Shown here one piece after another: positions 941-6,097 of a DNA stretch of 64,000 nt (position 1 is the stretch's first letter; every line of letters begins with the position of its first letter). The position numbers were made by a program, and so were the translations under genes. Source of the stretch: Micromonospora sp. NBC_01796 (GTDB taxonomy: Bacteria; Actinomycetota; Actinomycetes; Mycobacteriales; Micromonosporaceae). Under the pieces are notes generated by a model. The model made no database searches and was not told the origin of the DNA. It worked only from the letters and a program-made list of their open reading frames with translations. Where the stretch lies: NCBI RefSeq assembly GCF_035917455.1, contig NZ_CP109078.1, forward strand, positions 4,882,001 through 4,946,000, written 5' to 3'.

Positions 941-1159
941 ATGCGATGGCGTTGGTTTGTGCGGGCTGCTGTCCAGCAGCCGGATCGGGTGGGGCCGGCG
1001 ACGCAGTACGGGGGTCGGTCCGGTGGTTACCTGAGGGCGGCTGGGCCGGATGGTGCCGAGGCGCGGCCCGTACGCGGTGACGAGCCCGTTGTGGTCGAGC
1101 GGGCCGGGACCCGGGTGAGGTGGCCGGAGAACCGTGGGTCGCACTGGCGGTCGGTATGA
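941..1159 (+). CDS. small basic hypothetical protein, first of an overlapping chain
   Basis: 72 aa, Arg/Trp-rich at both ends (starts MRWRWFVR, ends SHWRSV). A strong ribosome site (GGGAGGT) sits 7 nt before the ATG. A longer frame exists upstream but has no ribosome site and runs antisense through the regulator genes. The stop overlaps the next ATG (ATGA). No family is recognised. It looks like the leader gene of a divergent transcript controlled by the split GntR pair. Confidence 0.6.
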   Translation: MRWRWFVRAAVQQPDRVGPATQYGGRSGGYLRAAGPDGAEARPVRGDEPVVVERAGTRVRWPENRGSHWRSV

Positions 1160-1365
1160 GTGAGTCGAGTCCGATCCGTCTCACCTTCAGTCGGTCGCTG
1201 TGGCCTGCGTTGATGCAGCAGGCGCGCAATGTTGTCGCCGCGCACGAGGGCGGCAGGCTGTGTGACTACTGCATCGAGCCGGGTGACTGTGGGCGGCTTC
1301 GGGGCGCGCACAGTCGTCTGGCTGATCCGGAGATGCTGGCCGCCGAGCAGGAGGAGCGGTCGTGA
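1156..1365 (+). CDS. small Cys-containing hypothetical protein
   Basis: 69 aa. It begins at the ATGA overlap with the previous gene and ends with a GTGA overlap into the next. The centre has CDYCIEPGDCGRLRGAH: three Cys and one His spaced as a possible metal-binding knuckle, followed by an acidic helix (DPEMLAAEQEERS). I recall similar small proteins next to GntR/UTRA regulators in actinomycetes, but cannot name a family. Function unknown. Confidence 0.65.
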   Translation: MSESSPIRLTFSRSLWPALMQQARNVVAAHEGGRLCDYCIEPGDCGRLRGAHSRLADPEMLAAEQEERS

Positions 1366-1676
1366 GCGGGCTTTATGGCGTACGCCGGAATCACGCCGAG
1401 TCGGACGTGGCGCTGCTTCGGCCGCGGCATCGCGCCGACGGACCTCGTGCCGCACAGCCTGCCCGGACCCGCCCGACGGGGAGGTTCCGCCGCTGGTGGT
1501 GTCGCCTGTGGCCGTGGGCGGTGCGGCGGAGTGTGCCGGTGCCGGCCGCGTCCGGGCGCAGCGCGGTGCCGCCTCCGGGGTGGGCGGCGGCGCCGACCAT
1601 GCACTCCGGGCCGCTGCTCACCTACGGGCAGCAGGTCGGATATCGGGTACGCCGACCAGGCGGTGACCGCCGATGA
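1362..1676 (+). CDS. small Arg/Pro-rich hypothetical protein
   Basis: 104 aa with a GTG start in the GTGA overlap and a stop that overlaps the ATG of the next frame. The middle has a Trp/Arg cluster (RFRRWWCRLWPWAVRR) that could be a short membrane-associated segment or a basic amphipathic helix. No family is recognised. Support comes from the unbroken chain of start/stop overlaps on both sides. Confidence 0.5.
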   Translation: MSGLYGVRRNHAESDVALLRPRHRADGPRAAQPARTRPTGRFRRWWCRLWPWAVRRSVPVPAASGRSAVPPPGWAAAPTMHSGPLLTYGQQVGYRVRRPGGDRR

Positions 1677-1795
1677 ACGAAGTTTTCCCGGCTCGGCCCT
1701 GCGGGGACGAGCTGCCGATGGTGGTACACCTTCGGGCGTTGACGGGGTATCGGCCGGGGACGCCCCCGCCCATCGTCGGACCGGTCGAATGGTGA
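1673..1795 (+). CDS. 40-aa microprotein in the overlapping chain
   Basis: A 40-codon frame from the ATGA overlap at 1673 to the TGA at 1793-1795, encoding MNEVFPARPCGDELP followed by MVVHLRALTGYRPGTPPPIV. It is too short for most gene finders, but it exactly bridges the gap between its neighbours and keeps the overlap pattern: its last 7 nt contain the start of the next gene. Function unknown; it could act only as a coupling frame. Confidence 0.5.
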   Translation: MNEVFPARPCGDELPMVVHLRALTGYRPGTPPPIVGPVEW

Positions 1796-2076
1796 CGCCG
1801 ACCGGGGCGACCTCGTCCAGTGGGCTGCATCTGCCGCTCCGACCGCTGTGGATATGCCGGATTGACGCCTACCCTTGGCCGTGCGCGGATGCGCGACTCG
1901 ACCTGACGAGCGGCTACCGCGACAAGACGATCAGTCTGACCCTCTTCCTCGCCTCCCAGTTCGTCGAAGCGCTCGGCGACCTGAACACGATCGACCCGGC
2001 CATCGGACCGCCACCCGACCCACGTGCGCTGTACGAGCGTTTCATCGGCTGGGTTCCGGCAAGGCGTACGCGATGA
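1789..2076 (+). CDS. conserved actinobacterial small protein with PWPC motif
   Basis: 95 aa, starting at the ATG inside the end of the 40-aa frame. It has the pattern WICRIDAYPWPC, then a Tyr/Arg stretch and a hydrophobic helix SLTLFLASQFVEALGDL, ending with ALYERFIGWVP. I recall this arrangement from small proteins common in Streptomyces and Micromonospora and sometimes mis-annotated as flavin reductases; no catalytic domain fits in 95 aa. The two Cys could bind metal. The start is set by the overlap, since no in-frame alternative between genes has a ribosome site. Confidence 0.65.
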   Translation: MVTPTGATSSSGLHLPLRPLWICRIDAYPWPCADARLDLTSGYRDKTISLTLFLASQFVEALGDLNTIDPAIGPPPDPRALYERFIGWVPARRTR

Positions 2077-2276
2077 GCGGGCTGATCAAGGTGACCGTCA
2101 ATCTGACCCCGGCGGCCGAGGCGGCACTGACCAGGCTCGGCGACGTGCACGCCAACCGGACCGACGCGGTCAACTTCGCGTTGCGGTTGGCCTCGCTGAT
2201 GGCCGACCTGGCGCCCGAAGGGCACTTCACGATCGTCCAGCCGGACGGTACCCACGACCGCGTACACCTGATCTAG
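2073..2276 (+). CDS. small ribbon-helix-helix-like protein
   Basis: 67 aa, beginning in an ATGA overlap. The N-terminal strand IKVTVNLTPAAEAAL, a helix, the turn-containing NRTDAVNFALRLASLM and a C-terminal strand pair resemble the ribbon-helix-helix fold of CopG/MetJ-type DNA-binding proteins. It is the last gene of the chain. Whether it binds DNA or only dimerises is not shown by sequence. Confidence 0.6.
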   Translation: MSGLIKVTVNLTPAAEAALTRLGDVHANRTDAVNFALRLASLMADLAPEGHFTIVQPDGTHDRVHLI

Positions 2277-5899: not shown

Positions 5900-6097
5900 A
5901 TGAGCCGCAACCAGGAGCCGATCAACGCGGGCGTGATCCGTGCGTCCGCCGACCTGACCTGGCAGCAGCACCAGCCCGGTGGCAACAGCTGGCAACCCGG
6001 CACCTGCCGGCAGTGCACCCGCGACGGTTGCCCCCAACTGACCTGGGCGACCCGCGTACGCGCCAGCGGTCTGGCGGCACAGCGCAACGTCGGGTGA
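5900..6097 (+). CDS. Cys-rich microprotein (paralogue of 2353-2541)
   Basis: 65 aa. Same core as the copy at 2353: WQQHQPGGNSWQPGTCRQCT..GCPQLTWATRVRASGL, with Cys at 36, 39 and 44. An AAAAGGAG precedes the ATG at 5900; further in-frame start codons upstream lack a ribosome site. Two paralogues 3.5 kb apart with unrelated genes between suggest duplication or repeated acquisition. Function unknown; the spaced Cys could coordinate zinc. Confidence 0.65.
   Translation: MSRNQEPINAGVIRASADLTWQQHQPGGNSWQPGTCRQCTRDGCPQLTWATRVRASGLAAQRNVG

Follow-up and report, generated by a model that had tools for sequence, protein, structure and literature searches.

Six small reading frames, each beginning within the end of the one before, face a GntR-type regulator in Micromonospora sp. 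NBC_01796. Are they genes, and if so, what could they do together? Feature positions refer to the window, which is the whole 64,000-nucleotide stretch that was analysed, unless the genome is named. ORF re-derivation recovers the frames (ORF1 to ORF6) on the plus strand at 941, 1156, 1362, 1673, 1789 and 2073, as in a preliminary description of this DNA. They encode products of 72, 69, 104, 40, 95 and 67 aa. Successive frames overlap by 4, 4, 4, 7 and 4 nt, and the overlaps read ATGA, GTGA, ATGA, ATGGTGA and ATGA. Spaced cysteines in two products (frames 2 and 5) and a ribbon-helix-helix (RHH)-like sequence in frame 6 are likewise present where they had been described. The claim that such chaining is hard to explain by chance was overstated. 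Chains of at least six ORFs, each of at least 40 aa and joined by 4- or 7-nt overlaps, occur in 7 of 60 order-2 Markov versions of the 64-kb strand with the same composition as the window; none occurs when a fixed 1.4-kb stretch is simulated 2000 times. Codon usage favours ORF5 and ORF6 only and is weak for ORF1-4. Since chaining alone is weak evidence and codon statistics favour just these two frames, conservation had to decide. ORF1 has a strong ribosome-binding site; none is recognisable at ORF2, ORF4 or ORF5, which start/stop coupling would permit.

A diverged copy of the block is found at genome positions 362.7-365.9 kb (L024), and a related chain is found elsewhere in the genus (L139). 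Between window and duplicate, dN/dS is 0.38 for the shared part of ORF1, 0.06 for ORF2, 0.31 for ORF3, 0.09 for ORF5 and 0.23 for ORF6, the ORF1 and ORF3 values being based on small counts. By this measure, purifying selection is shown for these five genes. The duplicate's ORF4 carries a 93-nt deletion which leaves nine codons; its 4-nt overlap with the next start is retained. The L139 chain runs P0001-P0002-X-P0005-(P0006/P0008)-AmcB, with overlaps of 4, 4, 7, 4 and 4 nt that include the same odd ATGGTGA, at a synonymous divergence of ~0.65 from the window. Frames and overlaps, whose conservation in relatives had been proposed as a check, are both kept in the duplicate, in sister cassettes and in L139. 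Chance ORFs of GC-rich DNA would be consistent with the simulated chains and with the weak codon usage of ORF1-4, but homology, selection and the kept overlaps counter this reading. It is refuted for ORF1, 2, 3, 5 and 6, is partly true of ORF4, which is a relic, and as an account of the block is extremely improbable. A genuine coupled small-gene block facing GntR-type regulators, as first described, is borne out by homology and selection. The block is one translationally coupled operon and a member of a multi-copy, modular cassette family of the Micromonosporaceae; that it is real, selected and part of such a family is highly probable. Literature searches found no experimental study of these small genes.

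Five of the six frames are real genes; the sixth, at 1673-1795, is the decaying relic of a larger one. ORF1 (941-1159, +; P0001 family) encodes 72 aa with the conserved ends MRWRWF and ENRGSHWRSV. It has four family copies in its own genome and is 71% identical to its L139 counterpart. The conserved aromatic C-terminus raised the possibility of a RiPP precursor; this is not supported, since the linked AmcB loci have their own AmcA-like peptide. ORF2 (1156-1365, +; P0002 family) encodes 69 aa with a zinc-knuckle-like H-x5-C-x2-C-x5-C pattern. ORF3 (1362-1676, +; P0003 family) has a GTG start and encodes a Pro-rich protein of 104 aa with the conserved tail TLGQxxGYxVxR; nine family copies are present in the genome, and relatives were found only within the genus. 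ORF4 (1673-1795, +) encodes 40 aa and is a relic of gene X (~100 aa) with its middle deleted. This follows from its C-terminal 30 aa, which align with the C-terminus of the intact 101-aa X of L139 with a score of 97, compared with a maximum of 51 in 5000 shuffles. ORF4 is perhaps kept just for coupling.

ORF5 (1789-2076, +) encodes the 95-aa anchor protein of the cassettes (P0005 family), with an HxPxRPxWxC...PWPC motif; one of the three cysteines is lost in part of the family. Its AlphaFold2 model (mean pLDDT 86) has short strands around the Cys motif followed by three helices, and a fold search with it against the PDB gave no match. In Micromonospora, P0005-like proteins are apparently annotated as 'flavin reductase' at times. 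ORF6 (2073-2276, +; P0006 family, 17 matches in its own genome) encodes an RHH-like protein of 67 aa with a C-terminal hairpin. The strand pattern KVTVNLT is followed by two predicted helices. One relative matches RHH_1 (E 0.008, below cut-off), and every member is below the Pfam cut-off. Modelled without an alignment, ORF6 gives a low-confidence structure (pLDDT 59) that places helices at 13-25 and 29-46, where an RHH protein would have them; its fold search gave no match.

The block was described as ending at 2276. The chain does end there, and the cassette goes on to a seventh, non-overlapping gene at 2353-2541 (+; P0008 family, 62 aa, zinc-knuckle-like H...C-x2-C-x4-C), which is assigned to it as a homologue of ORF2. 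H, C, C, C, L and A are invariant between the two, and the ligand set H, C, C, C is invariant in 14 ORF2/P0008 sequences; by sequence resemblance, these proteins are predicted to bind metal. A second zinc-knuckle-like gene of the P0008 family (5900-6097, 65 aa) is found ~3.4 kb farther downstream and belongs to no chain. None of Pfam, NCBIfam, PHROGs and PADLOC gave a usable family for the small proteins, no Pfam or NCBIfam model scored above cut-off, and PDB sequence and fold searches gave nothing convincing.

The facing genes had been taken for a split GntR pair, which is wrong: they are a complete GntR-UTRA protein and a separate UTRA-only gene. The regulator (1-201, -; genome 4881422-4882201, the remainder lying left of the window) is 259 aa long and matches PF00392 with 62 bits and PF07702 with 75 bits, both above Pfam cut-offs. 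The UTRA-only protein (194-739, -; 181 aa; ATGACTGA) matches UTRA with E 5e-21 and has no GntR HTH or other DNA-binding domain; its gene and the GntR start share 8 nt. UTRA-only relatives are found in 25 of 121 Micromonosporaceae genomes (11 of 44 genera), and a full GntR-UTRA gene adjoins the UTRA-only gene in 17 of the 20 loci fetched. Literature searches on stand-alone UTRA proteins found no description. The UTRA-only protein is 91% identical to that of the duplicate (dN/dS 0.23), where the adjoining regulator is an XRE-type HTH protein. It is 79% identical to that of L139, which has another GntR protein nearby. Taken together, the two comparisons indicate that the DNA-binding part was swapped while the UTRA-only gene remained with the tiny genes.

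The 201-bp divergent intergenic region (740-940) is, from its anatomy, the presumed promoter/operator site. Promoter, terminator and inverted-repeat scans of 740-940 recognised none, and 730-945 has weak repeats only. A 43-bp sequence just left of the window (genome 4881342-4881384) is ~91% identical to 927-969. The repeat takes in ORF1's ribosome-binding site and opening codons, and its second copy lies beyond the GntR/UTRA-only pair. The arrangement would fit an exchange in which the two regulator genes were inserted where ORF1 begins. Rearrangement of this region is also seen in the duplicate. In one other genus (L216, L219, L220), a UTRA-only/GntR pair faces two genes joined by a 1-nt overlap: an ORF whose zinc-knuckle-like end is rich in C-x2-C, and an X-like gene.

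The genome contains ~40 paralogous tiny-gene cassettes. P0005 has 39 matches in it (E <= 1e-5) and 22 and 27 in two genomes of the same genus. Of 61 Micromonosporaceae genomes, 34 carry it (in 23 of 44 genera), and so do 2 of 396 genomes of a phylum-wide sample, both of them Micromonosporaceae. A scan with a tight P0005 alignment (a 17-member one being too diverse) gave Micromonospora, Plantactinospora, Actinoplanes and Jidongwangia as named carriers. Phage and plasmid searches with P0005 gave no match, a P0002 scan of genome contigs found nothing, and literature searches on this family in Micromonospora found no description. Profiles made from the block genes were applied to 94 loci from the same genome, the genus, other genera and named contigs. 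In the recurring order, P0001, P0002 or P0003 opens the cassette, X or Y follows, and P0005, P0008 and P0006 come next, variously combined. There is no fixed two-gene core, and most cassettes have no RHH gene. An exact 4-nt overlap joins 74 of 106 neighbouring small-gene pairs, which are related by duplication and not independent. X and P0005 are fused as one ORF in L028 and, judged from translations, in L049, L225, L228 and L229, which argues that they act together. In L041, L050, L054 and L055, the second cassette protein resembles the DivIVA N-terminal domain (the L050 member was scanned), hinting at a link to polar growth. Near-identical IS3-type transposase genes lie beside L024 (335-658) and L029 (just after P0005) and are a possible duplication route.

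Most cassettes face a divergent DNA-binding regulator, often with an accessory partner. The most frequent arrangement is a divergent XRE and DUF397 pair, found at 17 of 39 loci in this genome, 10 of 20 in the same genus, 10 of 14 named and 13 of 20 in other genera. In a representative pair, Pfam identifies DUF5753 in the XRE protein and DUF397 in its partner. With 62 DUF397 genes in a genome of 8.56 Mb, chance placement would give less than one case in 39. None of the 62 lies within 80 kb of the block, and a recognised regulator is absent at 8 of the 39 loci. A third divergent regulator facing P0005, at L034, L035, L038, L053, L137, L168 and L170, is a 62-69 aa HTH_17-like protein below the Pfam cut-off. 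A divergent XRE/DUF397 switch over small effectors has a precedent in Streptomyces (PMC10294661, PMC10364602).

Some cassettes lead directly into RiPP genes. In L139, the chain continues through a GTGA overlap into a radical SAM protein, which matches the cyclophane RiPP maturase AmcB with 531 bits (cut-off 425); next comes an AmcA-like peptide whose sequence ends in FDNRPTWDNKPKFDSKPGWDNWSKKGK. A P0005-containing cassette is joined to AmcB by a 4-nt overlap, with an AmcA-like peptide after it, in L139, in L036 (same genome as the block, ~1.46 Mb) and in L236 (G427, another genus), that is, at three loci in two genera. AmcB is widespread among Micromonosporaceae (95 of 121 genomes). Of 32 AmcB loci scanned, 29 lack a cassette in the flank that was covered; the link is therefore confined to certain loci. 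No AmcB or AmcA is found near the block; AmcB occurs in this genome only at 1.46 and 3.22 Mb. Literature searches on AmcB found no description.

The preferred reading, to which a probability of about 0.55 is given, is a divergent ligand-gated switch over a co-translated small-protein operon. For operator binding, the role of the UTRA-only protein and the regulatory output, we infer the following. The GntR protein would bind the divergent intergenic region and set transcription of both arms. The UTRA-only protein would adjust its activity, either through a ligand of the same kind or through mixed dimers with it, in the way that WhiJ-type regulators are tuned by BldB-type proteins. Once the switch is open, a single mRNA would be read through the start/stop overlaps, which would tie together both the amounts and the location of the small proteins. 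P0005 and X (here a relic) would form one unit, with the zinc-knuckle-like and RHH-like proteins as partners. Together they probably make up a small regulatory complex that acts on development or specialised metabolism.

Three other readings can be weighed against this switch. The tiny proteins might be RiPP partner or chaperone proteins in a copy that has lost its precursor and maturase. The AmcB genes and AmcA-like peptides coupled behind three cassettes would fit, as would the XRE-DUF397 pairs reported beside graspetide clusters (PMC13097080). This reading is doubtful, given that nearly all scanned AmcB loci have no cassette, that most cassettes have no AmcB, and that the genome has two AmcB genes to ~40 cassettes. 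The cassettes could instead be toxin-antitoxin (TA) or anti-phage modules that spread selfishly, with the RHH-like protein as both antitoxin and repressor and another small protein as toxin. An RHH-like protein within a multi-copy tiny operon invites this idea, and XRE/DUF397 pairs were formerly proposed as TA systems; fourteen such pairs of S. coelicolor, however, acted as pleiotropic regulators, and none as a TA system (PMC10364602). The modules have no PADLOC match, P0005 is without a phage or plasmid match, and neither an RHH gene nor a fixed two-gene core is general among the cassettes. A TA or anti-phage function is thus unlikely.

Less likely still is that integrative elements left the cassettes as cargo or debris, and that duplication, not function, maintains them. 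Their many copies, the IS3-type transposase genes beside two of them and the 43-bp duplicate of the ORF1 start flanking the regulator pair are what mobile cargo might leave. Purifying selection, the gene order and overlaps kept across genera, and the lack of phage or plasmid matches for P0005 all speak against it.

If the switch reading is right, a different actinomycete family has a switch of this type opposite a set of tiny proteins that is compact, conserved and much repeated. A wider and more tentative possibility is lineage-specific combinatorial signalling. Dozens of exchangeable regulator pairs (XRE/DUF397, GntR/UTRA-only) and exchangeable chains of co-translated tiny proteins that form small complexes might stand in front of outputs such as RiPP enzymes, with cross-talk like that of BldB/WhiJ paralogues; the UTRA-only protein might sense a ligand on its own and act in trans on the GntR protein beside it. 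Because regulators have been swapped and genes fused in nature, partners and the direction of control can be tested. The analysis also yields several families of small proteins that no Pfam or NCBIfam model covers (~40 anchor genes in one genome), the conserved pairing of UTRA-only and GntR genes, and the link of cassettes to RiPP clusters.

Several known systems resemble parts of this locus. Like HutC-type GntR regulators, the 259-aa protein has both the GntR HTH and UTRA; it differs in being paired with a separate, conserved UTRA-only gene that overlaps its start. ORF6 is reminiscent of CopG/Arc RHH repressors in having a strand pattern (KVTVNLT) followed by two predicted helices, but its family is below the Pfam cut-off throughout and its model is of low confidence. 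AmcA/AmcB cyclophane RiPP clusters lie directly downstream of the related cassettes L139, L036 and L236, whereas this locus has neither the AmcB maturase nor the AmcA precursor. The XRE-DUF397 pair in most sister cassettes resembles Scr1/Scr2 (SCO4441/SCO4442). The pair is absent at this locus, and the facing tiny-gene operon is, in the sample, a Micromonosporaceae feature.

BldB/WhiJ-type loci, whose switches are tied to sporulation and antibiotic synthesis, have been important in Streptomyces genetics for decades; what BldB and IosA do biochemically is, to our knowledge, not yet understood. The sister cassettes resemble WhiJ-BldB-AbaA/IosA loci (e.g. S. venezuelae iosA-whiJ9-bldB9) in having XRE and DUF397 genes facing small effectors, and in having many paralogous copies. 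The locus described here shares small genes divergent from a regulator. It differs in having GntR-UTRA and UTRA-only proteins in place of XRE(DUF5753) and DUF397, and its putative effectors are tiny-gene chains and not AbaA or IosA. Since XRE and DUF397 are both absent, the locus would be WhiJ-BldB-like in its working but is not a member of that group.
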